Assembly (NCBI RefSeq): GCF_002127265.1
Contig: NZ_NFUU01000001.1
Coordinates: 682,001 to 746,000 of the forward strand
Length of the DNA: 64,000 nt
Direction: 5' to 3'
DNA from: Hydrogenophaga sp. IBVHS1
GTDB lineage: Bacteria > Pseudomonadota > Gammaproteobacteria > Burkholderiales > Burkholderiaceae_C
Under the pieces are notes generated by a model, which worked only from the letters and a program-made list of their open reading frames with translations, searched no databases and had not been told where the DNA came from. A program made the translations under genes and the position numbers. The first letter of the stretch is position 1, and each line of letters starts with the position of its first letter. Below are positions 6,253 to 30,828 of this stretch, one piece after another.

Positions 6253-6339
6253 CCGTTGGCACCGATGCCAGTCGGATGAGTTCGGTCGCCAGACGCGGGG
6301 CGCTTGATATATTGCGACCTCCCCCCAGAAGGAGGCTTC

Positions 6340-12052: not shown

Positions 12053-12053
12053 G

Positions 12054-12500
12054 TCAGCTACCTCCCAGCAGCGCAGCCAGCGGGCCGGTGGGCAGCACCA
12101 CATCGAGCAGCTTGTCGAACAGCAGGAACAGCACCAGGCCCAGCGCGGCGCCACCGGCGAATGACTGTTTCCAGCTGCCGCCAAACACCATGCCCACCGG
12201 CACGGCCATCAGTGCCGTGGCCAGTGCAAAACCCAGCCACTGGAACAGCAGCGCATAGACCAGTACGGCGGCTGCACACAAGGCGGTGGCCTTCCATGGA
12301 ACACCGTGGAAGGACTCTGCACCAGCGGTGGGGCGCAGCACCAGCCAGAGGCCACAGAGACCCAGACCGCAGGCCAGCAGCAGCGGAAAGGCGCGCGGGC
12401 CAACGGGTTCGTAGGAGATGGCGGCGGCGTAGTCCTGCGCGGCCCAGGCCATGGCGGCGGACGCAACAACACACACCGCACCGAGGACGCGGTCACTCAT
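12054..12500 (-). CDS. tctB: Tripartite tricarboxylate transporter, small permease TctB
   Basis: 148 residues with four hydrophobic helices (VLGAVCVVASAAMAWAAQ, FPLLLACGLGLCGLWLVL, ALCAAAVLVYALLFQWLGFALATALMAVPVGMV-type stretch, AALGLVLFLLFDKLLDVVLP). Size and the closing LLFDKLLDVVLPTG stretch match TctB, the poorly conserved small subunit that pairs with TctA. It lies between tctC and tctA in the usual order. Confidence 0.9.
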   Translation of the reverse strand: MSDRVLGAVCVVASAAMAWAAQDYAAAISYEPVGPRAFPLLLACGLGLCGLWLVLRPTAGAESFHGVPWKATALCAAAVLVYALLFQWLGFALATALMAVPVGMVFGGSWKQSFAGGAALGLVLFLLFDKLLDVVLPTGPLAALLGGS

Positions 12501-12527
12501 GGGGTACTCCGGGGAAAAGGGGGGCGG

Positions 12528-12567
12528 GCCACCATCAGGGTGGCGCCGCCATGCAGGGCCGAGGCCC
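12528..12567 (-). other. Hairpins between tctC and tctB
   Basis: In the 75 bp between tctC and tctB there are two short inverted repeats: GCCACC/GGTGGC (12528-12544) and GGGCC/GGCCC (about 12556-12567). There is no U-run, so these are not clear terminators. Such hairpins can stabilise the binding-protein message and lower permease expression. That role is inference. Confidence 0.4.
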
Positions 12568-12575
12568 CGCAGATG

Positions 12576-13565
12576 TCACTTGGCGGGCACGACGTTCAGG
12601 CCGAACTCTTCGGCCAGCTTGCGGTAGTCGGCCACCTGCTTCTTGACGTAGGCGTCCAGCGGCGCACCCGTCAGGGCCATGGGGAACAGGCCGCGCTCGC
12701 TGCGCAGCTTGTCGTAGGCGGGCGTGGCCATCAGCTTGGTGAAGGTGTCGGCCCAGATTTTGTAGTCGGCGTCGCTCACCTTGGGGCCCAGGTAGAAGCC
12801 GCGCACGATGGGCCATTCCACGTCATAGCCCTGTTCAGCGGCCGTAGGAATGCTGGCCATTTCGCCAGCGAGGCGCTTGTCGTTCATCACCGCCAGGATG
12901 CGAACCTTGGCGCCGGCCTTGATCTGTTGTCCGGCCTCGGCCGCGTCGCCGGTGAACACGTGGATGTGGCCACCCTGCAGCGCGGTCAGCGCTTCGCCGC
13001 CGCCCTCAAAGGCCACGTAGCGCATGGTCTTGGGGTTCACACCGGCGGCGCGTGCGGTCAGCGCGGCCTTCATCCAGTCCTGGCTGCCCACGGTGCCACC
13101 GGCGCCCAGAACCACCTTGGTGGGATCGGCCTTGATGGCCGTCATCACGTCCTTGAGCGATTTGAAGGGCGAGTTCTCGGCCACGACGACAGCGCCGTAG
13201 TCGGTGCCGATGGCGGCGAGCCAGCGCACGTCGTTCTCGGTGTAGCGGCCAAACTTGCCTTGGGCCAGGTTGAGCAGCGAGCCACCCGAGAAAGCAACGA
13301 TGGTGTTGGCTGCATCGGGCTTCTGCGCGATCACGGTGTTGTAGGCCACGGCGCCGATGCCGCCGGGCATGTAGGTCACGCGCATCGGGTCGGCGACGAA
13401 CTTGCCCTCCTGCAGTGCGCTTTGAACAAGCTTGCACGTCAGATCGAAACCGCCGCCGGGTTTGGCGGGCGCGATGCACTCGGTTTTTTCAAGCGCGCCA
13501 GCGGCGAAAGCGGTGACGGCGCTGGCCGAGATGGCCAGAACAACCAAGCGGGATGTGATGCTCAT
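12576..13565 (-). CDS. tctC: Tricarboxylate-binding periplasmic protein, Bug/TctC family
   Basis: 329-residue periplasmic binding protein with a Sec signal peptide (about 1-22, ITSRLVVLAISASAVTAFAAG). The mature protein has the Bug/TctC pattern: KTECIAPAKPGGGFDLTCKL, MPGGIGAVAYN, and a C-terminal helix set ending FGLNVVPAK. It delivers substrate to TctAB. The residues around CIAPAKPGGGFD differ from common Bug proteins and agree with TctC-like tricarboxylate binders. ATG 13565 has AGGAGA upstream. Candidate TctD sites lie 70-120 bp upstream. Confidence 0.93.
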   Translation of the reverse strand: MSITSRLVVLAISASAVTAFAAGALEKTECIAPAKPGGGFDLTCKLVQSALQEGKFVADPMRVTYMPGGIGAVAYNTVIAQKPDAANTIVAFSGGSLLNLAQGKFGRYTENDVRWLAAIGTDYGAVVVAENSPFKSLKDVMTAIKADPTKVVLGAGGTVGSQDWMKAALTARAAGVNPKTMRYVAFEGGGEALTALQGGHIHVFTGDAAEAGQQIKAGAKVRILAVMNDKRLAGEMASIPTAAEQGYDVEWPIVRGFYLGPKVSDADYKIWADTFTKLMATPAYDKLRSERGLFPMALTGAPLDAYVKKQVADYRKLAEEFGLNVVPAK

Positions 13566-13637
13566 GAAAGTGTCTCCTCTGGGGGTGAAACGCTCGCAAC
13601 GGATTTGCTGCGAAGAGGGCACTGTAGAAAAAGCGTA

Positions 13638-13684
13638 CTTTCAAGCCGCTTTCAGAAATGGGGCAGATTCTTCAGGGTTAACCC
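13638..13684 (-). promoter_or_regulatory. Candidate TctD operator/promoter region of tctC
   Basis: The gap between tctE and tctC holds a direct repeat CTTTCA at 13638-13643 and 13649-13654. The 11-bp spacing is one helical turn, typical of OmpR-family response-regulator half-sites. A perfect 10-bp palindrome GGGTTAACCC lies at 13675-13684. Location just upstream of tctC and the linked tctDE genes make these the likely control sites. Binding has not been shown. Confidence 0.4.
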
Positions 13685-13701
13685 GTAAAAGTGGCCGGAG
13701 C

Positions 13702-15108
13702 TCAGGCGCGGGCCAAGGTCATGGTGACCTCCAGCCCGAGCCCCTCGGGTCCGGCATTCACCTTCATCTCGCCGCCATGGCGCCTGGCCACCGTGCGCGC
13801 AATCGCCAGCCCCAGCCCGGAGCCAGGCAACGGGCCGTGGTGGCCGCGGAAGAACCGCTCGCCCGCGCGCGCCAGTTCGTCGGGCGGCAGGCCGGGGCCG
13901 TTGTCGACCACGCTGAAGCGCACGCCATCGTCGCTGTGGTCCACAGCCAGCGTCACCTGGCAGCCTGCACCGCCGTAGCGGATTGCGTTGTGCAGCAGAT
14001 TGGACAAGGCTTCCTTCAGCAGACCGGCTTCGCCGTGAAAGGACAGCGTGGTCATGGGTGCGTGCAAGCCCAGGTCGACTCCCTGTTCGCGCGCCACAGG
14101 CCACCAGCGGCTCACCAGGTCTTCGGCCAGCACCACCGCGTCCACCGGCTCGGGTTCCGGCGCGGCGCTGTCCGCCTTGGCAAGCGAAAGCATCTGGTTG
14201 GTCTGGCGAATGGTTTCGTCCAGCTGCTGGCGGATGTTGTCCATCACCTCGCGAAGCGCGGCAGGGTCTTGCTCGCGCTGGGCAAAAGCCACCTGGGTGG
14301 CCAGCGTGGTCAGCGGCGTGCGCAACTGGTGCGAGGCGTCGTCGATGAAACGTCGGCGCGCTTCGGCCTGCTCCCGGTTGCGCCCGATGTGGTGGTTGAT
14401 CGCACCCACCAGCGGCAACACCTCGGCGGGCACACCCTCGCTGTCCATCGGGGTGAGATCTTGCGGCGGTCGGGCCTCCACATCCTGGCGCAGGCGCGCC
14501 AGTGGGCGCATGGCCCAGGCAATGGCCAGACCAAACAAGGTGCTGGCCACCACCACCAGCAGGAAGTCGCGCGCCACCGATTGCAGCACCAGGGCACGCC
14601 GGAAGTCGGTGCGGGCTTCCAGGGTTTCGGCCACCTGAATCACCACTCGCTGCGGTCCTGGCTGGCCCGCCAGCGGCGTGGAGAGCTCGCGCGCGTAGCT
14701 GCCCACACGAACCGGTTCTCCGAAATACACACCCTCGTGAAACTGGGGTTGGCCCGATTGCAAGAGACTGGGCGGGGGGGGCAGGTCGGAGCTGCCGATC
14801 TCCACCAGGCCGTCTTCGGTGGCCACCCTGTAGTACACCTGCCCTTCGGCGGTGAGCTCGAAGAACTCCAGCATGCGGTAGGGAAGTTCCACAGCCAGGC
14901 CTCCGCTGGCGGTGGAAATGCTGGAGTCGATGGACTTCACCGCGCCCAGCAACGACCGGTCGTAGGCGGCGTCTGCCGCTTCGCTGGCGGTGCGCGAGGC
15001 CAGCCAGAGTTCGGCCGAAAACACCAGCAGCATGCCCGGCACCAGAACCACCAGCAGTGTGCGGCGGATGCTGCCGCCCAGCCATCGCGGAGGTTTCACG
15101 CGGGACAC
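13702..15108 (-). CDS. tctE: Sensor histidine kinase TctE
   Basis: 468-residue membrane kinase. Order: transmembrane helix (about 15-35), periplasmic sensor domain (about 36-175), second helix (about 182-202), HAMP-like linker, HisKA with phospho-acceptor H260 in DDASHQLRTPL, and a HATPase domain with N box NLLHNAIRYG, G1 VVDNGPGLPPDE and G2 GSGLGLAIART. It is expected to sense tricarboxylates outside and phosphorylate TctD. Its start overlaps the tctD stop by 13 bp, so the pair is cotranscribed, ahead of tctCBA. Confidence 0.93.
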   Translation of the reverse strand: MSRVKPPRWLGGSIRRTLLVVLVPGMLLVFSAELWLASRTASEAADAAYDRSLLGAVKSIDSSISTASGGLAVELPYRMLEFFELTAEGQVYYRVATEDGLVEIGSSDLPPPPSLLQSGQPQFHEGVYFGEPVRVGSYARELSTPLAGQPGPQRVVIQVAETLEARTDFRRALVLQSVARDFLLVVVASTLFGLAIAWAMRPLARLRQDVEARPPQDLTPMDSEGVPAEVLPLVGAINHHIGRNREQAEARRRFIDDASHQLRTPLTTLATQVAFAQREQDPAALREVMDNIRQQLDETIRQTNQMLSLAKADSAAPEPEPVDAVVLAEDLVSRWWPVAREQGVDLGLHAPMTTLSFHGEAGLLKEALSNLLHNAIRYGGAGCQVTLAVDHSDDGVRFSVVDNGPGLPPDELARAGERFFRGHHGPLPGSGLGLAIARTVARRHGGEMKVNAGPEGLGLEVTMTLARA

Positions 15109-15764
15109 TCCAGCAGGTAACCCATCCCTCGCAGCGTGGTGATGCGCACAGGAGACGCTTCAAGACGCTTGCGCAGGCGGTGCACCAGCACCTCGATGGC
15201 CTCGGGGCTCACGTCTTGTTCGTCGGAGAACAGGCGTTCCAGCAACTCGCGCTTGGACAGTGGCTCGCCGGGGTGCTGGATAAGGGCGCGCAGAAGCGCA
15301 TGTTCGCGCGGCGTAAGACTCAGCACGTCATGCTTCAGCCGAAACTGTTTGGACGCGCTGTCGTAGCCCAGCGGCCCGCAAGTGAAACGCGGATGGTCCT
15401 GTCCCCGGGAGCGCCGGATCAGTGCGACCAACCGCGCCTCCAGTTCCGCCACATCGAACGGTTTGGCCAGGAAGTCGTCTGCGCCACCGTGCAGACAGCT
15501 GACGCGCTCCATGAGCGAGTCGCGCGCCGTGAGGACGAGCACCGGCAGGCGCTCATCTGCTTCGCGCAGATCGGCCAGCACGTCGTGGCCGCCCAGGCCG
15601 GGCAGGCCCAGGTCAAGAATGAGTGCGTCGTACTTTGTGGCTTTGAGGCTGCGGCGCACCATGCGGCCGTCGTTCACCCAGTCGACCTGAAAGTCGCTCT
15701 GGGCCAGGGCCTTGGTCAACCAGTTTCCAAGGTCGGTTTCGTCTTCGGCAAGCAGGATGCGCAT
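15096..15764 (-). CDS. tctD: Response regulator TctD (OmpR family)
   Basis: 222 residues. Receiver domain 1-115 with acidic pocket E7/D8, phospho-acceptor D51 in LILDLGLPGLGG, T in LVLTARDS and K in FLAKPFD. C-terminal OmpR-type winged helix (about 125-220) with LTPREHALLRALIQHPGEPLSKREL and VHRLRKRLE. ATG 15764 is chosen because MRILLAEDE is the standard receiver start; the open frame upstream to 15890 is not receiver-like. It probably activates tctC in response to TctE. Confidence 0.94.
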   Translation of the reverse strand: MRILLAEDETDLGNWLTKALAQSDFQVDWVNDGRMVRRSLKATKYDALILDLGLPGLGGHDVLADLREADERLPVLVLTARDSLMERVSCLHGGADDFLAKPFDVAELEARLVALIRRSRGQDHPRFTCGPLGYDSASKQFRLKHDVLSLTPREHALLRALIQHPGEPLSKRELLERLFSDEQDVSPEAIEVLVHRLRKRLEASPVRITTLRGMGYLLECPA

Positions 15765-15796
15765 GGCCCGAGTCCGCTCGAAGTTCAGACAGGCCC

Positions 15797-16819
15797 CTAC
15801 GCGTACTCTTTCCGAAGCTGCTTCGCCGCAGCCACCATGTTTTCCAGCTTGCCCTGCGCCACTTCCCTCGGCAGGTACTTCATGCCGCAATCCGGCGCCA
15901 GAATGATCTGCTCGGGCTTCACATGCACCAGCGCTTTGCGCACGCGATCGGCAATCACCTCGGGCGTTTCCACGTTCAGATCCGACAAATCAAGACATCC
16001 CAGCAAAAACTGCTTGCCCTCCAGCTGGCGCAGCACCGACGTGTCGAGGTGGGACTGCGCGGTTTCGAGCGATACCTGCTTGCACCGGCACCCCGAGAGT
16101 TCGGGCAAAAAGGAATAGCCCGTAGGCCGCTCGTGGATGATGGCGGCGTAGCCAAAGCAGATGTGCACGCAGGTGGTGCCCTGCACACCCTCTAGCGCGC
16201 GGTTCAACGCGGCCAGGCCGTATTGCCGGGCCTTCTCCGGCCGGGCCTGCATGTAGGGTTCGTCGATCTGCACCACGTCGGCACCCGCAGCAAACAGGTC
16301 CTTGATCTCTTCGTTCACGGCCGCCGCGTAGTCCATGGCGGCTTCTTCTTCGCTTTTGTAAAAGTCGTTCTGAGCCTGCTGGAGCATGGTGAACGGGCCG
16401 GGCACGGTGATCTTGGTTCGCAGCTTGGTGTGCTTCTTCAAAAACTGCAGGTCCCCCACCTCCACCGCGTGCATGCGCCGGATCTTGCCAACGATGCGAG
16501 GCACCGGGTTCGGGTGCCCTGAACGGTCCAGCGCCGAGCCCGGGTTGTCCAGGTCCACACCCTCCAGCGCCGTGGCGAAGCGGTTGGAATAGCTCTCGCG
16601 GCGGATCTCACCGTCAGAGACGATGTCCAGCCCCGCGTCTTCCTGCAGGCGAATCGCAATGAGGGTGGCATCTTCCTGCGCCTCGGCCAGGTAGGCCTCT
16701 GGAATGCGCCACAGCTCCTTTGCTCGAACCCGGGGCGGGAACCTGCCGGCCAGCTTGGCGCGGTCGATGAGCCAGTCGGGCTGAGGAAGACTGCCGACGA
16801 CGGTGGTGGGAAACAACAT
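15797..16819 (-). CDS. Cobalamin-independent methionine synthase core (MetE C-terminal-like) protein
   Basis: 340 residues, a stand-alone MetE catalytic domain. Full MetE is about 750 residues with an N-terminal half that is absent here. Visible features: FPTTVVGSLPQPDWL at the start, DIVSDGEIRRESY, VQIDEP, the zinc-ligand region HICFGYA (about H219) and APDCGMKYLPR (Cys about 312). Such short proteins can transfer methyl from a corrinoid protein or other donor instead of methyltetrahydrofolate. The donor is unknown. No riboswitch is recognisable upstream. It is 33 bp from tctD on the same strand. Confidence 0.85.
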   Translation of the reverse strand: MLFPTTVVGSLPQPDWLIDRAKLAGRFPPRVRAKELWRIPEAYLAEAQEDATLIAIRLQEDAGLDIVSDGEIRRESYSNRFATALEGVDLDNPGSALDRSGHPNPVPRIVGKIRRMHAVEVGDLQFLKKHTKLRTKITVPGPFTMLQQAQNDFYKSEEEAAMDYAAAVNEEIKDLFAAGADVVQIDEPYMQARPEKARQYGLAALNRALEGVQGTTCVHICFGYAAIIHERPTGYSFLPELSGCRCKQVSLETAQSHLDTSVLRQLEGKQFLLGCLDLSDLNVETPEVIADRVRKALVHVKPEQIILAPDCGMKYLPREVAQGKLENMVAAAKQLRKEYA

Positions 16820-17292
16820 GGATACACCCTTTCAGTGGAGGAATGGCTGGCCGCGGCACATCGTACAACTTGATACCCATGGGGGGTACTGGTACCGAAG
16901 CTCGACGCAACGAGTAAGCACCCGGCTTCGCCAGACCCGTCGATATACTGCGCCGGTCACGTCACACAAATACGTGGCCGGGTGCTCGACTAGATGAACC
17001 TGCAGCCACAACACGAATGACCGAGAGACATGAAAGCTACTGGACCTGCGGATGGACATTAATTCAGCCGGTCGCTTTGTAGTCTTGCCTGCCTTGTCTT
17101 CATTCAGACCCCGGACATCCCCGGATGTGCGACCGATTCCACGTCGCGTCGAAGTACGACGGAGCAATCACCCTAGGCTGGGCAACTTTGTGTCAGTATG
17201 GTTCTTTGGCTGAAGCTCACATCCGCAAGAGATGAGCCACATAGGGAGGGGCCTATCGGGCCTGTGGACAGTTCAACTGACTTGGATTGAAG
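16820..17292. other. 473-bp gene-free stretch at the left edge of the insert
   Basis: I find no convincing gene here. The single frame on the minus strand (16832-17167) has atypical composition and no recognisable motif. The stretch must carry the divergent promoters of the MetE-like gene and the large helicase gene. It contains one copy of an 11-bp repeat (16913-16923) and a perfect inverted repeat ACATCC/GGATGT with a 2-base centre at 17115-17128, which could be an operator for the helicase gene. Confidence 0.5.
16913..16923 (+). repeat. 11-bp direct repeat, left flank of the two-gene insert
   Basis: AGTAAGCACCC occurs here and again at 25294-25304, on the other side of the lower-GC two-gene insert. 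The right copy forms the last codons of the DUF1993 gene. It may be a target-site or attachment-site duplication. No integrase is present and the match is short. Confidence 0.35.
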
Positions 17293-20200
17293 ATGGCGCA
17301 GCTCGACTGGAAGCAAACAGAACATGAAAACCCGAAGCCAGACACAACCGAATCGGTAGATGTCGTGCGTGAACTTCGGCTGGAAGCTGCGTTTTCAACC
17401 AAGCTGAATCTCGCTGATTTTCAGAACTCGGTTCCATTGCTCCGAGAACTGCAGGTAGTCAGCACACTTACCGAGGAATCCAAAGGCCTGGAGTTGGTGC
17501 TCGAATCCATCCCTGCCTTTGTTCGAGCCAAGAGATGGCGGCTCGATTCGGTTGGGGCCGGTCAATCCTATCGAGTGCAAGAGCTGGACGTTCAACTCGA
17601 TGGAGTGCTGCTGAGCAAGCTCACCGAGGCAGAGCAGGCAACGGTCACGCTCACCCTCAAACGGGCCGATGCAGGTCCGCAAGACGATCCCGTCGTCATT
17701 TCTCGCAAAGTCGAACTTCTCCCTCGTAACCAATGGGGCGGAATCGCGCACATGCCGGACATGATCGCGGCCTTCGTCCAGCCCAACGAACCTGCGATTG
17801 ACCGGCTTCTCAAGAAGGCTGCGGATGTGCTTCGAGACAACGGCAAGGATGCCTCTCTTGATGGCTACAAGGGTGGACCCAAGCGCGCGTGGGAAATCGC
17901 ATCGGCCATCTGGGGTGCTGTCGTCGGCATGAAGCTTGACTACGCACTGCCACCAGCGAGTTTTGAGCACTCAGGACAGAAGATTCGGTCTTCGGGACAA
18001 ATCGCGGATTCAGGTCTCGCGACGTGCCTTGACCTGGCTCTTCTCTTTTGCTCGGCCTTGGAGCAAGCCGGTCTCAACCCCTTGCTGATATTTACCAAGG
18101 GACATGCGTTCGCAGGCGTTTGGCTCAAACACGAAGAGTTTTCCTCCTCTGTGGTGGATGACATCACCGCGCTGCGCAAACGCGTGAAGCTCAAAGAACT
18201 GGTGTTGTTCGAGACCACCCTCGTGGCGCAGAGACCAGGGGTTCCCTTTCGATTCGCAGCAGACAACGGTACGTCCCAAGTCTCAGAAGAGCAAGCCGAG
18301 AGGTTCGAGCTCGCGGTAGATGTGCGGCGGGCGCGATTGCAACGCATCAAGCCGTTGGCAAGCAATGAAACGCCTCTCCACCAGGCAAAGCCGGAGGATG
18401 ACGGACCGACGGTAGTCCCCTTCGACGAGGCCCCGGATCTTCCAGACGACATCATTGTTGAAGGCAAGCCCTCGACACTGGACCCGAAAGACAGACTCGC
18501 GCGCTGGCAGCGCAAGTTGCTTGACCTGTCGATGCGCAACAATCTGCTCAACTTCAAGGCGGGAAAGAAATCGCTGAAGCTGGAGGCGCCAGATCCCGGA
18601 GCACTTGAGGACCTCATGTCCGACGGCAAGGAAGTGCGACTGTTGCAACGGCCTGATCTGATGGATGGTTCGGACCCCAGGAATCAGGCCATCCATGAAG
18701 CGCGTGAGCGCGAAAACCTGCGCCGCACCCACGCCGTCGATGCGCTGAAACGCAGGGAGGTTTTTGTCAGCCTCCCTCAGGAGGAACTCGAAACCCGACT
18801 GGTTGACTTGTACCGATCGGCAAGGACAACCCTACAAGAAGGTGGCGCGAACACCTTGTTTCTTGCTCTGGGTTTTCTCACCTGGACCCGCGACGAGAAA
18901 GACGAGAAAACCTTCAAGGCGCCTCTTGTACTCTTGCCCGTGACGTTGAACCGCAAGAGCGTCCGGTCTGGTTTCTCGTTGACCATCCACGAAGATGAGC
19001 CTCGCTTCAATCCCACGCTGATTGAGATGTTGCGCCAGGACTTCAAACTGGAACTGGGGATCCAAGGCGGTGAGCTTGCCCAAGACGATGCTGGCGTGGA
19101 CATCGCGAAGATCTGGCGTACCGTGTCAGCGGCAGTCAAAGACATCAAGGGCTGGGAGGTTTCGGAAGATGTTTACCTCTCGATGTTCTCCTTTGCCAAG
19201 TACCTGATGTGGGTGGACTTGGTGCAGCGTACCGACCAGCTGCGACAGAACAACGTGGTCAAACACCTCCTCGACACGCCACGGGATCCCTTTCCGAGCA
19301 CGTCCTCTTTTCCCAATCCAAAGGTACTCGACCGCGACTTCGGACCCGAGCAGACATTCTGCCCCCTGCCCGCTGATTCGTCTCAATTGGCGGCCGTGAT
19401 GGCCGCAGCCAGGGGCAAGGATTTTGTGCTGATCGGGCCTCCTGGTACGGGTAAGAGCCAGACGATCTCCAATCTCATCGCTCAGTGCCTGGCCGAGAAC
19501 AAACGTGTGTTGTTTGTCTCAGAAAAGATTGCCGCGTTGGACGTCGTCTACAGACGCCTGCGTGAGGTCAAGCTCGGCGAATTTTGTTTGGAGTTGCATT
19601 CGAACAAAGCCAGAAAGCTCGACGTGCTGGCTCAGCTCAAGACGGCCTGGGAGGCCAAGGGTGACATTGATCCGGAAGCTTGGGCGGCGGAGGCCCGGAG
19701 GCTGAAGCGTCTGCGCGACGAACTGAACGTGTATGTCGAGCGGTTGCATCACAAGCATTCGAACGGCCAATCCATATTTGATGCCATTGGTGTGGTCGTG
19801 GCGGGCGCCGACATGCCCGCGCTGGGACTGTCCTGGTCTTCGCATTCGGCACACGGTGCCAAAGACACCGAGAAACTCCGCGAGGTGGTAGACCGATTGG
19901 CGGTCAACGCATCTGCCGTCGGCCCAAACGCTCTCACATCAGGGCCACTCAAGGATGTTGGCCAGGATGATTGGTCACCGACCTGGCAGCAGATGCTGAT
20001 CGATGCGGCTCGGGCTGTGGTTCCTGTGGCTGAGCGAATCCAGAACACGGCCGAGTCGTTCTGCCAGGCGATTGGCCTGGAAACAGGACAACTGACGCGC
20101 CGGCGCCGCACCGCGCTGGCCACCTTGAGCCGGGCGCTTCCCATGGCTTCCGGAAAAGACTGGCGATTCGCATTCAGGGCGGATGCAAAGACCATTTCGG

Positions 20201-23200
20201 AAGCGCTCAGTGCTGGATGCAAGTTGGTGGTCGAGCATGCCCAGTTGAATGCTGAGCTCTCGCCCGGCTGGACTGCAGGAGTCGTGCACGATGCAGAGAG
20301 CGGCGCAGATCTCTTGGCCAGGCGCACAGATCTGGTCGGAAGCCTCGCAAGACCGTGGCCCGCAGACGCACAGGAAAGCATCGCGAACGGTGTGAAGCTG
20401 CTGGAGCGGCTGGAGTCGCTCGGGAAGACGCTCTCTGTCCGCTACTCCGACGGTATTGAGCAGGTGAATGTCTACCTGCTGCACCGAGAGTACGCCAAGG
20501 CACAGAAGTCGGTATGGCCAATGTCGTGGGCCGGCAAGAGAAAGGTCCGAAAGATCCTGGAGGCACTTGTGGCTGGCGATGGTGAACCCAGCGTTGCCAA
20601 CGACTTGACTGCCTTGGTCGCCATACGAGACACGCGGTCGGCGATCGAAAAACACGACATCGGTCCCGAGGCGTCGGGCATCTGGTTCGGACTGAAGTCC
20701 CGTGCAGAAGTCCTGACGGGCGCCTTGAAGCTCCAAGCAGCCGCTGCCGCCGTCAAACAAGGCTTGGCTTGGACCGACGAAGGACTGGACGCATTGGCCG
20801 CTGGCCGAGGGGGTGAGACTCTGGCTGGAGAGGTGCAGAAACTCCGTTCCATCGGCGAACTTGATCAGCGCATCAACGCCTTCCCCAACCTGCGCAGTCA
20901 AACGGGTGGCCTTTGGAGAGGGCTTGAAAGTGATGTTCACATCTTGCGCGTAGCGACCATATTCGCGCGCCTCCTTGAGATCATCCGCTCACGGGGAACC
21001 ATGGAGGGCGAGCTGCAGTTGGTTGCGACGGGAGCATGTGGCGAGATGTTCTCCCGTGATCACCAGCTGCTTGCAAAGCGCACAGCATGTGAACGCCAAC
21101 TGTCCTCCTTCGACCAACTCGGCATGTCAACTCATGGCGTCTGGAAAGGGCTGGACACCGACGTTCAGGATGTTGAAAAGGCTATCCGGTTTCAGGGTTC
21201 CATTGCCGCAGCGATATCGAACCTTGCCCTCGCACCGTCCGAGGTACCTGCTGTTTCAGCGGTGCTTGAACGACTGGTGGTTGACGGAAATGGGCTGCTG
21301 GATGTGAATGGTCCGGTCGCAGGCAGGGGCCAAGACTATCTGGACGCATGGGCCAAGCTGCAGCCGGCCGTGGACAAGCTGGCGCAACAAGGGCACTTCT
21401 CTGACCTGGCACAAGCGGACTTCCAGGAAATTGACATCGAGAGCTTGGTTGGGCGTTGCAAGAATCTTGTGCAATCCGAAGCGCGCCTTCATGCTTGGTG
21501 TCCGTGGCGGAAGGTACGAGGGGAAGCAATAACTTTGGGCCTCAGCCCAATGGTTGCCGGCCTGGAGAATGGTGCCGTCGCACCTGCAGACGTGATGAAG
21601 GCGTTTGAGACGAATTACTGCCGATGGTGGCTCAACGCGGTCGTCGATAGTGAGCAAGTCATCCGGACCTTTGTCTCCGCAGAACACGAGAAGCGTATCG
21701 CTGATTTTCGGGCGCTGGACAGCAAATTTACTGAACTGACACGTGCCTGGGTGAGAGCATCGCTCTGTTCGGGATTGCCCTCGCCGGAGGACGTGACTCG
21801 CAATTCCGAGTGGGGGCTGTTGCGCCGCGAGATCACGAAGAAGCGTGCCCACCTCCCACTGCGTGAGCTGATCGGAGGAATTCCTACTGCGATGGTGAAA
21901 CTCACGCCATGCTTGTTGATGAGTCCGCTTTCGATCGCGCAGTACCTTGCGCCAGATTCGGAGCAGTTCGACGTTGTGGTCTTTGACGAGGCCTCGCAGA
22001 TTCCGGTGTGGGACGCCATCGGCGCGATTGCCCGCGGCAAGCAGGTTTTGATGGTCGGAGACCCCAAACAGCTTCCCCCAACTGCATTCTTTGACAGAGC
22101 CGAGTCGTCGCTCGATGACGAAGAGGTCGAAGGTGACATGGAAAGCATCTTGGATGAATGTCTGGGAGCAAATCTTCCAACGCTCGATCTTTCTTGGCAC
22201 TACCGCAGCCGCAACGAGAGCCTCATCGCCTTCTCCAATCACCGGTATTACGGCGGTGAACTGGTCACCTTCCCCTCACCAGTGACAGAAGACAAAGCCG
22301 TCAGCTTTCACTACGTCAAGGGCGTCTATGAAAAGGGTGGCGCCAGGATCAACAAACCCGAGGCAAAGGCGGTGGTTGCAGACGTCGTCGCAAAACTGAA
22401 GTCGCCAGGGTTCAGAGCTTCGAAACACACGATTGGCGTGGTCACCTTCAATTCGGAGCAGCAAAAACTCATTGAAGATCTCTTGGACGAAGAGCGGCGC
22501 AAGGATCCTTCGATCGAGCCTCACTTCTCCGAAGCCGAACTGGAGCCCTTGTTCGTGAAGAACTTGGAGAGCGTTCAAGGGGATGAACGCGACATCATGT
22601 ACTTCTCCATTTCCTATGGTCCTGACATGAGCGGTGCAGTCTCGATGAACTTCGGCCCCATGAACCGCGATGGTGGAGAGAGGCGCTTGAACGTGGCCAT
22701 CACGCGAGCCCGTCAAGAGCTGCGCGTGTTCTCAAGTCTCAAACCCGATCAGATGGACCTCTCCCGCACGCAAGCGCATGGTGTCCGTGACCTCAAGCAT
22801 TTCCTTGAGTTTGCAGAACGCGGTCCGAAAGCCTTGGCAGAGGCCACACGCGGCAGCCTCGGTGACTTTGAGAGTCCGTTCGAAGAGGCCGTTGCCGGCG
22901 CGCTGGCGGCAAAGGGGTGGGAGCTGCACGCACAAGTCGGCGCCTCATCGTTTCGGGTTGATCTTGCAGTTGTGCACCCAGATGCTCCTGGTACCTATCT
23001 CTCTGGAATTGAATGCGACGGGGCGACGTATCACCGCTCAGCCACCGCGCGCGATCGAGACAAACTGCGTGAGCAAGTGCTGCGAGGCTTGGGCTGGGAC
23101 ATTCTGCGCATCTGGTCCACCGACTGGTGGGTCGACAAGAATGGAACACTTGATCGTATCCACGCGAAGCTTGCGGCGCTGCTTGAGGTCAGCCGTAAGA

Positions 23201-23922
23201 GACGTGCCGAAGAGGCAGAAATGGCTGCAGCAAAGGAAGCTGCTGAGGCCGCCCTGCGAAAGGCCCACGCCACGGTGCCTGCAGCGAATAAACACCCTGG
23301 TGAAGCAACGCGAAGTGGCACCGCTCTCTCCGAAGAGTCCGTCGAGGTTTTTGACGAGGTGTATGCCAGGAATGCAGCTCAGCAGGGATCGAGTGACCTC
23401 ACGAGCAGCCAAGGGCAGTTTTACCGGGAGGTGCCCACGGAAGAACTGGAGGGGGCGGCTGTGGCTGACAGGTTTTATGAAGCTTCGTATGAGTCAGTCT
23501 TGATCGCCATGATTGAGCACGTGATTCAAACCGAAGGACCAATTCTTGATTCTGTGTTGGCACGTCGTATCAGTCGTGCGCATCAATGGCAAAGAACCGG
23601 CGGTCGCATTCAGGAGCGTGTTGAAGCGATCGCTCGCCAGCGGTTCAAGAACTCCAAAGAGGACGTCGGCACCTTTTATTGGCCTCAAGCGCTTCCCCCA
23701 GGTTCTCCAGTTGCCTTCAGGCGCCCCCCCGAGGAGCAGCAACGCTCGATTGACGAGGTTTGCATGCCAGAGCTCCAGGCGCTGGCACAGATGTGCCACG
23801 ACCCTGTAAACACCGACGATGAAAACTTGGTGAGCATGGCGAGGGCCCTAGGTATTCAGCGCTTGCGCGCAGCCAGTCGAGTCCGGCTTGAGGAGGCCCT
23901 GCGTGCAGTCAACAGGCGGTAG
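17293..23922 (+). CDS. Giant transglutaminase-like/DUF4011/SF1 helicase/Vsr-like nuclease/DUF3320 protein, probable defence gene
   Basis: 2209 residues. Order: beta-rich domain (about 1-190); transglutaminase-like fold with Cys245 (GLATCLDLALLF), His271 (GHAFAGVWL) and Glu307 (VLFETT); DUF4011 (from about 402, LLDLSMRNNLLNF); SF1 helicase with Walker A GPPGTGKS (715-722), then about 840 inserted helical residues, Walker B DE 1565-1566 (VVFDEASQIP), GDPKQLPPT and motif VI NVAITRARQE (about 1800); Vsr/MTES_1575-type nuclease with E1864/1865, D1890 and ECD 1907-1909; C-terminal DUF3320 (about 2065-2120). DUF4011-helicase-Vsr-DUF3320 is, as I recall, the architecture of the single-gene anti-phage system Hhe. 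ATG 17293 follows an in-frame TTG at 17287. Confidence 0.88.
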   Translation: MAQLDWKQTEHENPKPDTTESVDVVRELRLEAAFSTKLNLADFQNSVPLLRELQVVSTLTEESKGLELVLESIPAFVRAKRWRLDSVGAGQSYRVQELDVQLDGVLLSKLTEAEQATVTLTLKRADAGPQDDPVVISRKVELLPRNQWGGIAHMPDMIAAFVQPNEPAIDRLLKKAADVLRDNGKDASLDGYKGGPKRAWEIASAIWGAVVGMKLDYALPPASFEHSGQKIRSSGQIADSGLATCLDLALLFCSALEQAGLNPLLIFTKGHAFAGVWLKHEEFSSSVVDDITALRKRVKLKELVLFETTLVAQRPGVPFRFAADNGTSQVSEEQAERFELAVDVRRARLQRIKPLASNETPLHQAKPEDDGPTVVPFDEAPDLPDDIIVEGKPSTLDPKDRLARWQRKLLDLSMRNNLLNFKAGKKSLKLEAPDPGALEDLMSDGKEVRLLQRPDLMDGSDPRNQAIHEARERENLRRTHAVDALKRREVFVSLPQEELETRLVDLYRSARTTLQEGGANTLFLALGFLTWTRDEKDEKTFKAPLVLLPVTLNRKSVRSGFSLTIHEDEPRFNPTLIEMLRQDFKLELGIQGGELAQDDAGVDIAKIWRTVSAAVKDIKGWEVSEDVYLSMFSFAKYLMWVDLVQRTDQLRQNNVVKHLLDTPRDPFPSTSSFPNPKVLDRDFGPEQTFCPLPADSSQLAAVMAAARGKDFVLIGPPGTGKSQTISNLIAQCLAENKRVLFVSEKIAALDVVYRRLREVKLGEFCLELHSNKARKLDVLAQLKTAWEAKGDIDPEAWAAEARRLKRLRDELNVYVERLHHKHSNGQSIFDAIGVVVAGADMPALGLSWSSHSAHGAKDTEKLREVVDRLAVNASAVGPNALTSGPLKDVGQDDWSPTWQQMLIDAARAVVPVAERIQNTAESFCQAIGLETGQLTRRRRTALATLSRALPMASGKDWRFAFRADAKTISEALSAGCKLVVEHAQLNAELSPGWTAGVVHDAESGADLLARRTDLVGSLARPWPADAQESIANGVKLLERLESLGKTLSVRYSDGIEQVNVYLLHREYAKAQKSVWPMSWAGKRKVRKILEALVAGDGEPSVANDLTALVAIRDTRSAIEKHDIGPEASGIWFGLKSRAEVLTGALKLQAAAAAVKQGLAWTDEGLDALAAGRGGETLAGEVQKLRSIGELDQRINAFPNLRSQTGGLWRGLESDVHILRVATIFARLLEIIRSRGTMEGELQLVATGACGEMFSRDHQLLAKRTACERQLSSFDQLGMSTHGVWKGLDTDVQDVEKAIRFQGSIAAAISNLALAPSEVPAVSAVLERLVVDGNGLLDVNGPVAGRGQDYLDAWAKLQPAVDKLAQQGHFSDLAQADFQEIDIESLVGRCKNLVQSEARLHAWCPWRKVRGEAITLGLSPMVAGLENGAVAPADVMKAFETNYCRWWLNAVVDSEQVIRTFVSAEHEKRIADFRALDSKFTELTRAWVRASLCSGLPSPEDVTRNSEWGLLRREITKKRAHLPLRELIGGIPTAMVKLTPCLLMSPLSIAQYLAPDSEQFDVVVFDEASQIPVWDAIGAIARGKQVLMVGDPKQLPPTAFFDRAESSLDDEEVEGDMESILDECLGANLPTLDLSWHYRSRNESLIAFSNHRYYGGELVTFPSPVTEDKAVSFHYVKGVYEKGGARINKPEAKAVVADVVAKLKSPGFRASKHTIGVVTFNSEQQKLIEDLLDEERRKDPSIEPHFSEAELEPLFVKNLESVQGDERDIMYFSISYGPDMSGAVSMNFGPMNRDGGERRLNVAITRARQELRVFSSLKPDQMDLSRTQAHGVRDLKHFLEFAERGPKALAEATRGSLGDFESPFEEAVAGALAAKGWELHAQVGASSFRVDLAVVHPDAPGTYLSGIECDGATYHRSATARDRDKLREQVLRGLGWDILRIWSTDWWVDKNGTLDRIHAKLAALLEVSRKRRAEEAEMAAAKEAAEAALRKAHATVPAANKHPGEATRSGTALSEESVEVFDEVYARNAAQQGSSDLTSSQGQFYREVPTEELEGAAVADRFYEASYESVLIAMIEHVIQTEGPILDSVLARRISRAHQWQRTGGRIQERVEAIARQRFKNSKEDVGTFYWPQALPPGSPVAFRRPPEEQQRSIDEVCMPELQALAQMCHDPVNTDDENLVSMARALGIQRLRAASRVRLEEALRAVNRR

Positions 23923-24067
23923 GGGCATCAGGTACTGGCGGACATGGCTCTCGACACATCAAGCAGCTCTCTGTCGCGTGCCGGATTCGTTTGCTCACGC
24001 GCACATGGATGCGGGAGCACAGTTTTTGTGAGATCAGTTTTCAACAAACCGTGAGGAGGAAAATTCT

Positions 24068-25177
24068 GTGGACTTCATCGATCAGTTACGCGTTCTGGCA
24101 TCAAGAATCTCAGTCACTAAAGACATGATCCAGACTGAGGAGGCGACCAAGAATTCGATGGTTATGCCTTTCATTCAGATCTTGGGATACAACCCTTTCG
24201 ATCCGCTGGAAGTCACGCCAGAGTTGATTGCGGACATCGGCACAAAAAAAGGCGAGAAGGTGGACTACGCCATCCTGCGTGATGGCAAACCAATCATGCT
24301 CTTCGAGTGCAAAAAAGCTGGCGGAGATCTCAGCATCAATCATGCGGGTCAGCTATTCAGGTACTTCCATGTCACCGCCGCCAGGTTCGGTGTGCTCACC
24401 AACGGATTGGTGTACAAATTCTTCACAGATCTTGAGCACCCGAACAAGATGGACGAAAAGCCATTCTTCGAGTTCAACATTCTCGACTTCAGAGATCGTG
24501 ATGTCGAAGAGCTCAAGAAATTTGCGAAAGCAGCGTTCGACTTGGACACGATCCTGACTACGGCGAATGAGCTCAAGTACACAAGAGCCATTCAGAACAA
24601 GCTGTCTGCCTGGATTGAGAATCCCCCAGAGGAGGTCGTCCGTTTACTTGCGACCGATTTGATCGGCAACAAAAAATTCACGGTGGCGATTCGCGAGCAG
24701 TTCACGCCCATTGCAAGACGAGCATTCGAACAACTCATCGGCGAGCGCATCAATGCCCGCTTGAAAGGCGCGATGTCTCCTGAGGCTGTTTCGGTCATCA
24801 ATCTTCAGCCGCCAGCCACACCCATGCAGAACACTGCTAATCCCATACCCCTTGCGACGAGTGCGACACAAGCGCAAGTTGACACATCCATGGAGGAGTT
24901 CGAAGCATTTCATCTGGTCAAAGCCATCCTTCGAGACGTTGTCTCACCAAAGCGAATTTTCATTCGCGATGCTCAGTCCTACTGCGCCGTACTCCTAGAT
25001 GACAACAACCGCAAGCCGATTTGCCGTCTGAGGTTCAACAACAATCAGAAGTTGCGATTGGGCCTTTTTAGTACCAGCAAGGAAGAGGAAGTGATGAACA
25101 TAGAGGCCGTCGATGACGTGTTTCTGTACGCTGATCAGCTAAGAGCAACTGCAACTTTTCACCTGAGCCAAACGTGA
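24068..25177 (+). CDS. Type I restriction HsdR-N-like PD-(D/E)XK nuclease protein
   Basis: 369 residues. The first 160 match the stand-alone HsdR N-terminal nuclease family: a conserved entry helix (EEATKNSMVMPFIQILGYNP) and the catalytic core D66...E80-x-K82 (KVDYAILRDGKP, FECKKAG), then a beta strand/Gln motif HAGQLFRYF. The C-terminal part (about 275-365, FHLVKAILRDVVSPKRIF) is a separate small domain that looks like the one following such nucleases. GTG 24068 is the start, preceded by a strong AGGAGG. It has no HsdM or HsdS partner. It lies 145 bp after the giant helicase gene and shares its lower GC (about 50% in the row I counted), so they likely arrived together. Confidence 0.8.
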   Translation: MDFIDQLRVLASRISVTKDMIQTEEATKNSMVMPFIQILGYNPFDPLEVTPELIADIGTKKGEKVDYAILRDGKPIMLFECKKAGGDLSINHAGQLFRYFHVTAARFGVLTNGLVYKFFTDLEHPNKMDEKPFFEFNILDFRDRDVEELKKFAKAAFDLDTILTTANELKYTRAIQNKLSAWIENPPEEVVRLLATDLIGNKKFTVAIREQFTPIARRAFEQLIGERINARLKGAMSPEAVSVINLQPPATPMQNTANPIPLATSATQAQVDTSMEEFEAFHLVKAILRDVVSPKRIFIRDAQSYCAVLLDDNNRKPICRLRFNNNQKLRLGLFSTSKEEEVMNIEAVDDVFLYADQLRATATFHLSQT

Positions 25178-25291
25178 TCTCTTCGGGTTGGCTTGTGCCT
25201 GGAAAGTAGGAATCCCCGCCGGCAGCTATCGCCGCAATTCCACCATCCATAAACCAACGTCGCACGCCCGAAACGGGTCGGCCATCTAGCC

Positions 25292-25801
25292 TCAGTAAGC
25301 ACCCATGTAGTCACGTTTCCCGATCTCAACGCCGTTGTGGCGCAAGATGGCATAGGCGGTGGTCACGTGGAAGAAGAACTGCGGCAGGCCGTAGTGCAGC
25401 AGATAGGCGCTGGCCATCAGCTTCTTTTCCTTCGGCGTGCCGGGGCGCAGCACGATCTCGCGGCTCTCACTTGCATCAAATTGCTCCGGCTTGAAGGAGC
25501 CAACATGGGCCAAAGCCCTGGTGATCAACGCTTGCAGGTCCGCGAAGCTGACCTCGGTGTCGGGCCAGGACGGCACCTCGGCACCCGCCAGGCGGGAGGA
25601 AATGCCCTTGGAGAAGTCAGCGGCAATCTGTACCTGACGGATCAGCGGCAACATGTCGGGAAACAGCCGCGCCTGGAGCAGCGCATTGGGATCGATGTTC
25701 TTTTGCGTGGCGTGGTCTTCGGCTTTCTTGAGCACGTCCGACAAGGCCTTCAGCATCTGCTGCAGGACGGGAACGGAGGCGGTGTACAGAGGGCTGGTCA
25801 T
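25292..25801 (-). CDS. DUF1993 family protein
   Basis: 169 residues matching DUF1993, helical proteins of about 165-175 residues with a DinB-like four-helix layout: ASVPVLQQMLKALSDVLKKAE near the start, LFPDMLPLIRQVQIAADFSKG in the middle and LPQFFFHVTTAYAILRHNGVEIGKRDYMG at the end. The histidine in FFFHVTTAYAILRH is in the usual place. Function is unknown. The start ATG 25801 fits the family N-terminus; an open frame extends upstream to 25885. Confidence 0.88.
   Translation of the reverse strand: MTSPLYTASVPVLQQMLKALSDVLKKAEDHATQKNIDPNALLQARLFPDMLPLIRQVQIAADFSKGISSRLAGAEVPSWPDTEVSFADLQALITRALAHVGSFKPEQFDASESREIVLRPGTPKEKKLMASAYLLHYGLPQFFFHVTTAYAILRHNGVEIGKRDYMGAY
25294..25304 (+). repeat. 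11-bp direct repeat, right flank of the two-gene insert
   Basis: Second copy of AGTAAGCACCC, overlapping the stop and last codons of the DUF1993 gene on the minus strand. The 114 bp between the nuclease gene stop and the DUF1993 stop contain no gene. Confidence 0.35.
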
Positions 25802-25894
25802 GATGGATGAATTCACTTTTGCTGGGGCAAGATCGCCGGGGTTGGCATGGCGGAAGCCCTGCCGACCACGTGAGGCTACCAGCATGCGTCCAGC

Positions 25895-28272
25895 CTAGGT
25901 GCCCACCGCCCGCAACACCTCTTCCGCCGTCGCCGGCGCATTCATCGCCTCTGCATTCCCGCCCGCCTGCGCCACCGCATCGCGCAGCGCCTCAAACACG
26001 CTGATCGCCAGCATGAAGGGCGGTTCGCCCACGGCCTTGCTGCCGTGCACGTTGTCTTCCCGGTTGGCCTCGGGCCAGAGGTCGGTCTTGAAGTGTTCGG
26101 GGATGTCGCCGGTGGCGGGGATCTTGTAGGTGCTGGGGGCGTGGGTCTGCAGGTAGCCCTTGTCGTTCCACACCAGTTGTTCGGTGGTGAGCCAGCCCAT
26201 GCCTTGTACGAAGCCGCCTTCGATCTGGCCGATGTCGATGGCTGGGTTGATGCTGTGGCCCACGTCGTGAAGGATGTCGACCTTGAGCACGCGGCTCTCG
26301 CCGGTGAGCGTGTCGATGGCCACTTCGGTCACGGCGGCGCCGTAGGCGAAGTAGTAGAACGGCCGGCCCGTCAGGGTGGTCTTGTCGTAGTGGATCTTGG
26401 GCGTGCGGTAGAAGCCGTCGCTCCAGAGCTGGATGCGGTTGGCGTACGCGGCGCTCACCACGTCTTCAAACTTTCGCGTGGTGGTGGGCGTGATCACCTG
26501 GCCGCCTTCGAAACGCACGGCGCCGGCACCGCAGTTGTCCAGGCCGGAGACGAACGCGGCGAGGTTGTCGCGCACGTGGCGGGCGGCAAACTGCGCGGCG
26601 CGGCCGTTCAGGTCGGTGCCGCTGCTGGCGGCGGTGGCGCTGGCGTTGGGCACCTTGCTGGTGTCTGAAGCGGTCGACAGCACCTTTTCAAACGGCACGC
26701 CGAGTTCGTCGGCCACGATGGCGGCCACCTTGGTGTTCAGGCCCTGGCCCATTTCGGTGCCGCCGTGGTTCACCTGCACGCTGCCGTCGGTGTACACGTG
26801 CACCAGCGCGCCGGCCTGGTTGAACAGCGTGGCGGTGAAGCTGATGCCGAACTTCACAGGCGTGAGCGCAATGCCTTTCTTGATGACGGGGCTCTGCGCG
26901 TTCCAGTCGGCAATCTGCTCGCGGCGTTCGCGGTAGCCGCTGGTGTGGGCCAGCGTGGTCATCAGCGGTTCGAGAATGTTGTCCTCCACCTTCATCTGGT
27001 AGTGGGTGACGTTGCGTTCTTCAATGCCGTACAGGTTGCGCAGGCGCACGTCCAGTGGGTCCAGCCCCAGCGCGCGGGCGATATCGCTCAGGATGCGTTC
27101 GATGACGATGACACCCTGCGGGCCGCCGAAGCCGCGAAACGCGGTGTGGCTTTGTATGTTGGTCTTGCAGCGGTAGCTGGAGATGGCCACGTCTTCCAGG
27201 AAGTAGGCGTTGTCGGCGTGGAAGATGGCGCGGTCGGCCACGGGGCCGGAAAGGTCGGCGCTGAAGCCGCAGTTGGCCAGCATCTCCAGCTCTAGCCCGC
27301 AGAGCTGGCCGGTGGCATCGAAGCCGGCGCGGTAGTGGTAGGCGAAGGGGTGGCGCTTGCCGGTGACCATGAAGTCGTCGTCGCGGTCCAGCCGCAGCTT
27401 CACCGGGCGCTTGAGCTTGTTGGCGGCGATGGCGGCCCACACGGCCAGGTTGCCGGCCTGCGTTTCCTTGCCACCGAAGCCGCCACCCATGCGCCGGCAT
27501 TCCACCGTCACGGCGTGGTTGTCCAGCCCCAGCGCGTGCGAAACCCAGTGCTGCACCTCGCCGGGGTGCTGGGTGCTCGAATACACCCACCACTGGTCTT
27601 GCTCCAGCGGCAGCACATAGGCCACCTGGCCTTCCAGGTAAAAGTGTTCCTGCCCGCCGATCTCGAAGGTGCCTTCAATCACCTGCGGTGCGCGCGCCAG
27701 TGCGGCGGCGGCGTTGCCGCGTTTCACATGCACCGGTGGCAACACGTAGCTTTGCAGCGCGTGCGCCTCGTGCACGCTGATCACAGCCGGAAGGGGCTCA
27801 ATGTCGAACTTCACCAGCCGTGCGGCGCGGCGCGCGGTCATCACGTCGTCGGCCACCACGAGCGCGGCCACCTGGCCAAGGAACTGCACGGTGTCGGTGG
27901 CGAACACGGGCTCGTCGTGCGCGAAGGCGGCGAGCATCGGGTCGCCGGGGATGTCGGCGGTGCTGAACACGCCGCGCACGCCCGGCACGGCGAGCGCGGC
28001 GCGGGTGTCCATGCCGCGCAGCTTGCCGTGCGCCACGGGCGAGCACACCGGCGCGGCGTGCAGCGTGCCGCGCACTTCGGGGATGTCGTCTATATAAGTA
28101 GCGCCACCGGCCACCTGGGCACGCGCGCTTTCGTGGAAGCGGGAGACGCCGGCGGCGCGTTCGGCTTTGGGTTGCGTCGGTGTGGTCGGGATGGGGGTTT
28201 CGGGAGCGATCTCGGCGTCCCCTCGGGAGGAGATCACCACCGGCGTGTCGGTCGGGTTTTTGTCGCGTGCGT

Positions 28273-29860: not shown

Positions 29861-30805
29861 ATGAAATACGGGGCCATGTTCGACAAGATAGACCTGCACC
29901 TCATTCGCGTGTTGCACACCGTGCTCACCGAACGCAGCGTCTCGCGTGCGGCGATCCGGCTGGGCATGTACCAGCCGGCGGTGAGCGCGGCCCTGAAGCG
30001 CCTGCGCGAACTCGCCGGAGACCCCCTTCTGGTGCGTTCAGGCTCAGGCATGGTGCCCACGGTGGCCGGCCTGCGCATGATCGAGCCGGCGGCCGACATC
30101 CTGCGCAGCGCCGAGGTGCTGTTTTCCGACGCGCGCAGTTTCGATCCCGCCACCGCCCACCACAGCTTCAGCCTGGCCGCCAGCGACTATCTGGATCCGC
30201 TGTTCCTGCCCCAGCTGGTCACGCAGATCAAGAGCCTGGCGCCGCACTGCCCGATCGACATCCACCCGCTCTCGCGCGATTCCGATTACCGCAACCACCT
30301 GGCCCAGGGCGATGTGGACGTGGTGATTGGCAACTGGGCGCAGCCGCCGGACGATCTGCACCTGGGGCGGCTGTTCGGTGACGAGGTGGTGTGCCTGGTG
30401 TCGAACCAGCATCCGGCCGCGCGGCGCGGCTGGGACGTGGAGGCCTGGCTGGGCGCCGAGCACATTGCGCCCACGCCCACCCACCCCGGCGCGCGCGGCT
30501 TCATCGACGACCACCTGGCCAGCCTGGGTCTGGTGCGCAACATCACCGCGCGCTGCCCCCATTTCGGGCTGATTCCGGCCATGGTGGCGGGCAGCCTGCT
30601 GGTGCTCACCACCGGGCGCCAGTATTGCGAGCGCTTCACCAGTGTGCTGCCGGTGAAGGTGCTGCCCAGCCCGGTGGAATTCCCCCGGATGATGTATTAC
30701 CAGCTCTGGCACGAGCGCACCCACGCATCGAACGCGGCGCGCTGGCTGCGCGAACAGATCAAGACGGTCGCCGCTTCGCTCAAGCGGCTGGACGCCGAGT
30801 CCTGA
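29861..30805 (+). CDS. LysR-family regulator of the purine locus
   Basis: 314 residues. Winged helix at 10-70 (IDLHLIRVLHTVLTERSVSRAAIRLGMYQPAVSAALKRLRE-type pattern) followed by the two-lobed effector domain (HHSFSLAASDYLDPLFLPQLV, LAQGDVDVVIGNW). ATG 29861 or ATG 29876 could start it. It diverges from xdhAB and runs in the same direction as the ABC importer genes, 23 bp ahead of the ATPase, so it may be cotranscribed with them. The likely ligand is a purine or urate-type compound, by context only. Confidence 0.9.
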   Translation: MKYGAMFDKIDLHLIRVLHTVLTERSVSRAAIRLGMYQPAVSAALKRLRELAGDPLLVRSGSGMVPTVAGLRMIEPAADILRSAEVLFSDARSFDPATAHHSFSLAASDYLDPLFLPQLVTQIKSLAPHCPIDIHPLSRDSDYRNHLAQGDVDVVIGNWAQPPDDLHLGRLFGDEVVCLVSNQHPAARRGWDVEAWLGAEHIAPTPTHPGARGFIDDHLASLGLVRNITARCPHFGLIPAMVAGSLLVLTTGRQYCERFTSVLPVKVLPSPVEFPRMMYYQLWHERTHASNAARWLREQIKTVAASLKRLDAES

Positions 30806-30828
30806 CCCCACCCACAAGAAGGAGACAC

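Follow-up and report, generated by a model that had tools for sequence, protein, structure and literature searches.

Do two neighbouring genes of Hydrogenophaga sp. IBVHS1, one coding for a giant multidomain protein and the other for a stand-alone nuclease, form a two-gene anti-phage module, or have they come to lie side by side by chance? Both are located in a stretch of 64,000 nucleotides (contig NZ_NFUU01000001.1, positions 682,001 to 746,000), which was analysed as a whole and is called the window here. A first-pass annotation had read the pair as one lower-GC insert, had named the giant as the single-gene system Hhe and had suggested the nuclease as an added effector. Its two open reading frames of 2209 and 369 residues were recovered as described, the giant starting with ATG at 17,293 and the nuclease gene running from 24,068 to 25,177. 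The giant has 2211 residues if the TTG at 17,287 is taken as its start, and a frame that stays open for 2211 codons and encodes this order of domains is not a product of chance. The features of the locus are as follows.

15,767–25,901, no strand: stretch between two blocks, both conserved in relatives but lying apart there, holding the MetE-like gene, the giant, the nuclease and DUF1993 (flank DNA comparison)
17,287–23,922, + strand: giant, predicted defence protein of the ProA family, PADLOC PDC-S37 (ORF, Pfam, PADLOC, NCBIfam, alignment)
17,365–18,504, + strand: modelled N-terminal stretch, Ig-like domain and putative transglutaminase-like peptidase domain (model, alignments)
18,514–19,032, + strand: DUF4011, residues 410–582 (Pfam, 2.5e-52)
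19,375–22,734, + strand: SF1 helicase, Upf1/SMUBP2-like, with a long insert between the motor halves (Pfam AAA_11/AAA_12, alignment, structure search)
22,879–23,172, + strand: Vsr-type nuclease MTES_1575, residues 1865–1962, predicted to be catalytic (Pfam, 1.2e-33)
23,467–23,616, + strand: DUF3320, residues 2061–2110 (Pfam, 5.5e-19)
24,068–25,177, + strand: stand-alone HsdR-N-type PD-(D/E)XK endonuclease, phrog_4225, 369 residues from GTG (ORF, Pfam, PHROG, alignment)

Domains and motifs of the giant protein

The giant is built of an Ig-like domain, a transglutaminase-like peptidase domain, DUF4011, an SF1 helicase, a Vsr-type nuclease (MTES_1575) and DUF3320, in this order. The last four had been named before, and each was matched in Pfam. 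The helicase motifs GPPGTGKSQ (residue 717), DEAS (1567), GDPKQLPP (1591) and VQGDERD (1763) are invariant in 18 aligned sequences, as are the nuclease residues D1892, E1909 and D1911; the helicase and nuclease motifs are thereby intact. GPPGTGKSQ is the Walker A motif. SMUBP2, Sen1, DNA2 and Upf1 are the solved structures nearest to the helicase, and helicase relatives were the only matches.

The transglutaminase-like domain gave no Pfam match at E ≤ 0.01; nevertheless, its earlier annotation was borne out by matches of the modelled fold in the PDB. A model of 380 residues (27–406), calculated from 17 sequences, reached a mean pLDDT of 77.8 and a pTM of 0.61; the single-sequence model (pLDDT 35) was unusable. 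The best Foldseek rows were a putative cysteine protease, 3isr, and transglutaminase 2 (E about 5e-4, with low TM-scores). Most VIA-align rows fell on the Ig-like domain (model residues 1–122), a common fold. The transglutaminase-like core was aligned with PNGase 3esw (Z 9.9, 166 residues, 5.2 Å) and with protease 3kd4 (Z 9.2, 137 residues, 3.3 Å). C247, H273, D291 and D292 are all invariant in the 18 aligned sequences. A 17-sequence alignment included two copies of greater divergence, taken from viral contigs; these have E in place of D291, while C247, H273 and D292 remain invariant throughout. The latter three may form a Cys-His-Asp triad, and together with the moderate fold matches they place the N-terminus in the transglutaminase-like superfamily.

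The architecture is close to one described in 2013. Anantharaman et al. (PMC3710099) describe giants that combine HEPN, a transglutaminase-like peptidase, an SF1 helicase, a Vsr nuclease and winged helices, lack associated modification genes and are proposed to act alone on invading DNA. DUF3320 is reported there to overlap a winged helix. The MTES_1575-type giants of that paper resemble that of the window in their domain types, the MTES_1575 nuclease, DUF3320 and the lack of a modification gene. They differ in having an N-terminal HEPN RNase domain (PMC3710099), for which no Pfam family was matched in the window's giant at E ≤ 0.01, the structure model spanning residues 27–406 alone.

In several relatives (loci L124–L126, L127, L128, L135 and L004) the match ends at about residue 1970–1987, and the fused DUF3320 end is absent. 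A separate downstream ORF of 200 residues in L127 (6630–15129) matches residues 2039–2205; in that locus the C-terminal part may thus be encoded separately.

Family assignment

The NCBIfam equivalog model NF058533 (antiphage_ProA) was matched over the whole profile (giant residues 41–2192 to positions 1–1903 of 1903) at 2348.6 bits; its curated cut-off is 1500. The Hhe model NF042953 gave 837.4 bits, below its cut-off of 2000, and PADLOC ranked PDC-S37 (1266.6 bits) about twofold above Hhe (580.2). With a score above the ProA cut-off and below that of Hhe, the giant is assigned to ProA (PADLOC PDC-S37), and the identification as Hhe in the first-pass annotation is rejected. Hhe is a related but different family, whose alignment with the giant lies over the second helicase half and the nuclease (best stretch residues 1351–1989). 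Nothing tested separates the giant from ProA/PDC-S37, and in the loci read an adjoining nuclease is no characteristic of the family. By its assignment to a named family, the giant is a known kind of defence gene, with a predicted anti-phage function.

A literature search, with most subscription journals outside its scope, found no paper behind the ProA name or PDC-S37, and none for HyoA. HyoA is NF058534, the accession next to ProA in NCBIfam; it was considered as a partner and rejected, being absent from the window's genome.

The HsdR-N nuclease

The second gene was confirmed as a stand-alone HsdR-N-type nuclease, as annotated earlier. Pfam HSDR_N was matched at 7.9e-15 and phrog_4225 (endonuclease) at E 4e-113, protein residues 2–362 aligning to profile positions 3–351 of 357. 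D66, E80 and K82 (D-ExK) are invariant in 14 aligned sequences, the window's own included. No solved structure was matched at a meaningful E-value. Profile searching for defence systems had been proposed for both proteins; with PADLOC it identified the giant as PDC-S37 but gave no match for the nuclease at E ≤ 0.01.

Relatives of the nuclease were found in 18 phage records, 51 plasmid records and 3 contigs of the viral collection, and also on chromosomes. The window copy, a near-full-length match to phrog_4225, is chromosomal, and no phage gene was recognised among its neighbours examined. Five plasmid stretches with the nuclease are dissimilar, having an AAA ATPase/UvrD pair, transport genes or metabolic genes as neighbours. 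On a plasmid of Variovorax sp. RA8 (L170, 8001–12973) a homologue immediately precedes an AAA ATPase/UvrD-helicase pair, which presumably resembles Gabija.

Recurrence of the pair

An operon would be compatible with the arrangement of the two genes, which share a strand and are separated by 145 bp. In a promoter scan, sites did not exceed the level of shuffled sequence, and none lay upstream of the giant or between the two genes.

The giant was matched in 9 of 67 genomes of the genus (E ≤ 1e-10) and is near full length in its own genome and in three of the 66 others; the nuclease was found in one of the 67, its own, and in none of the 66 others. The family sample held the giant in 30 of 399 genomes (E ≤ 1e-50) and the nuclease in 13 (E ≤ 1e-8), both together in the window's own genome only, with about one such genome expected by chance. 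The corresponding numbers for the class were 18 and 13 of 369 (E ≤ 1e-50 and E ≤ 1e-20), with both genes in two genomes, the window's own and G461. The latter is a draft of 270 contigs, in which the two genes lie on different contigs and the giant match is partial. Many of the giant matches in the family (30) and class (18) are partial or distant relatives. Both samples were even draws; shared handles and equal numbers indicate that one draw served both queries.

No nuclease relative is encoded in any of 32 giant loci, which represent 31 distinct places (L021 and L119 are one contig) and nine of which have less than 2.5 kb on one side. With ORFs called in giant and control loci by a longest-ORF heuristic, no gene family was common to three or more of the 32. 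The sole three-member cluster joins two giant loci with the window ORF at 30,391–32,370, outside the insert. Just two giant loci share each of 24 further clusters; 12 of these join the duplicates L021 and L119, and none includes the window. The nuclease was likewise absent from six viral-contig giant loci and four plasmid giant stretches. Conversely, the giant was absent from the loci of nuclease relatives that were read, namely seven from the family, three viral contigs and five plasmid stretches; these 15 include two repeats, L172 being the place of L115 and L161 looking like that of L110.

The giant and the nuclease thus co-occur at about chance level and are adjacent in no other genome examined. 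The first-pass annotation had staked its two-gene module on the genes being neighbours elsewhere; in the samples examined they do not recur as such, and the module of giant and HsdR-N nuclease was rejected. Since they are not neighbours across the genus, family, class, viral and plasmid loci, and DNA similarity is confined to the genes, both appear to travel alone.

Composition and mobility

Both genes have a lower GC content than their surroundings, as described earlier, and look like foreign DNA. The giant has 58.2% GC and the nuclease 50.3%, compared with 62.9–67.3% for five measured neighbour genes and 60.4% for DUF1993. GC3 is 65.5% and 62.2%, respectively, compared with 81.5–88.4% for five flanking genes and 77.8% for DUF1993. 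The MetE-like gene is host-like in composition. The ORF at 13,652–15,163 was left out of this comparison as it is in the wrong frame, a sensor kinase gene lying there. Both genes are real and intact, and they were very probably acquired.

In a tree of 26 giants, the window copy groups with that of Chitiniphilus eburneus, a member of another family (72% identity; SH-aLRT 99, by a quick method), and the three near-full-length giants of the same genus belong to another clade. In the loci compared, DNA similarity to relatives does not extend beyond either gene, giant or nuclease. The difference in GC (58% versus 50%) and the end of DNA similarity within each gene point to separate arrivals, so the reading as one two-gene insert was not upheld.

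Giant relatives occur on plasmids, two of which were read and typed as conjugative, and on six contigs of the viral collection. The latter were detected by a search with an alignment; the same collection searched with the single giant protein gave no match. Any match to the giant was found in 437 plasmid records, 244 of them from Klebsiella. Relatives of about 42% identity are carried by many Klebsiella and Raoultella plasmids (H35–H53), and two of the Klebsiella records listed have the match broken into pieces, with IS21 genes annotated in the gaps.

The genomic site

To its left the giant is flanked by a gene for a MetE-like protein; to its right the nuclease is followed first by DUF1993 (Pfam) and then by a molybdopterin-binding/FAD-FeS dehydrogenase pair of the xdh type; all three had been annotated correctly. 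To the left, a block of tct-type transporter and two-component genes is shared by at least 19 of the other 65 genus genomes, and matches to it end at window positions 15,755–15,788. The right block starts at 25,895–25,920 in most of the listed relatives reaching its end.

Four relatives carry both blocks on a single large contig, at widely separated positions: 0.93 and 3.40 Mb in G028, 2.45 and 3.34 Mb in G047, 4.17 and 0.29 Mb in G005, and 0.76 and 0.09 Mb in G023. The flanking blocks are not adjacent in the relatives that allow a reading, so a clean empty site is lacking. None was found via DUF1993, the MetE-like gene or flank DNA in relatives, where the first-pass annotation had proposed to look for one. 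DUF1993 orthologues of six relatives are 81–92% identical, with no dehydrogenase block in the surroundings fetched. The MetE-like gene has only 37–39% identical matches in the genus, in four of 65 other genomes at E ≤ 1e-60. Variability may extend over the entire stretch from 8.4 to 25.9 kb, since G015 has a gene like that at window 6,323–8,438 at a distance of about 5 kb from its dehydrogenase genes. The locus represents a breakpoint in synteny or a hot spot, at which there were probably several separate arrivals.

At least 19 relatives share almost the same end point of the transporter/two-component block itself (10,586–15,767). In six that were read, the DNA past it differs from that of the window, as if the block had moved as a cassette.

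Possible defence islands around giants

In the 80 ORFs nearest to giants 64 PADLOC models were matched, compared with 12 in 80 control ORFs; these numbers count models rather than proteins, and several models match one protein. The near-giant set was taken from 185 neighbour ORFs of at least 130 residues (the nearest 81 minus one giant fragment) and the control set from 103 ORFs. The 12 control models include PD-Lambda-1 and PDC-S35. As the models are redundant and the proteins were uncounted, the difference hints at defence islands but does not amount to a measured enrichment. In the window, the flanking genes examined (transporter, two-component, MetE-like, DUF1993, dehydrogenase) include no defence family in Pfam.

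On a plasmid of Comamonas antarctica (L175), genes annotated as a PDDEXK nuclease, a TIR-domain protein and an AAA ATPase/UvrD pair lie near the giant, and these surroundings are likely a defence island. ORFs around the DUF1993 orthologues (L104–L109) gave PADLOC matches to PD-Lambda-1, PDC-S35 and PDC-S46, and the DUF1993 locus may be a hot spot in relatives too. A DUF4011 gene is given as core flank of one defence hot spot of P. aeruginosa in a 2023 paper (PMC10250203).

Discussion

It is highly likely that the giant is a single-gene ProA anti-phage protein and that the nuclease is an unrelated mobile endonuclease, which arrived separately and is a chance neighbour in a variable region. The earlier proposal of a defence module holds for the giant, which is anti-phage by family, but not for the pair, which is not recurrent and is adjacent nowhere else examined.

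A two-gene module, with the HsdR-N nuclease serving the giant as an additional effector, would explain the shared strand, the spacing of 145 bp and the low GC of both genes; within the genus, the nuclease is missing from all 66 other genomes and the near-full-length giant is present in three. Nevertheless, among the 399 genomes of the family sample only the window's own has both genes; the class sample (369) holds one further such genome, in which they lie on separate contigs and the giant match is partial. Moreover, no nuclease is encoded in the 32 giant loci, the six viral-contig loci or the four plasmid stretches, the GC of the two genes is 8 points apart and neither gene shows DNA similarity to relatives past its own ends. 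Such a module is very unlikely. Recruitment of the nuclease in this strain alone, for a second cut or a wider phage range, would make a young, lineage-private two-gene form of ProA, which we regard as very improbable.

The nuclease might instead be a defence gene in its own right, with two independent systems sharing one hot spot. The PADLOC models near giants (64 versus 12, 80 ORFs each), the variability of the region among relatives and the homologue beside the AAA ATPase/UvrD-helicase pair on the Variovorax plasmid speak for this. However, PADLOC gave no match to the nuclease at E ≤ 0.01, no Pfam defence family was found among the window's flanking genes examined, and the PADLOC comparison is redundant by model, with defence-like matches in the controls as well. 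We consider this reading possible, though somewhat doubtful. A housekeeping role of the giant in repair would be in line with the resemblance of its helicase to SMUBP2, Sen1, DNA2 and Upf1, but is highly improbable in view of near-full-length giants in just three of 66 other genus genomes, relatives on plasmids and a curated anti-phage family.

As a single-gene ProA protein, the giant could act in this strain in several steps. The C-terminal DUF3320/winged-helix region, perhaps with DUF4011, would contact invading DNA, the SF1 helicase motor would load and translocate, and the Vsr-type nuclease would cut. Cleavage or crosslinking of a protein by the transglutaminase-like domain may follow as a second step or serve as an activation switch. 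No methyltransferase gene recurs beside the giant, so it probably distinguishes self from non-self by means other than DNA modification.

With these results the false lead of a two-gene Hhe variant is removed and the giant receives its right name. The giant of the window is most likely a new member of a known anti-phage family, beside a chance neighbour.
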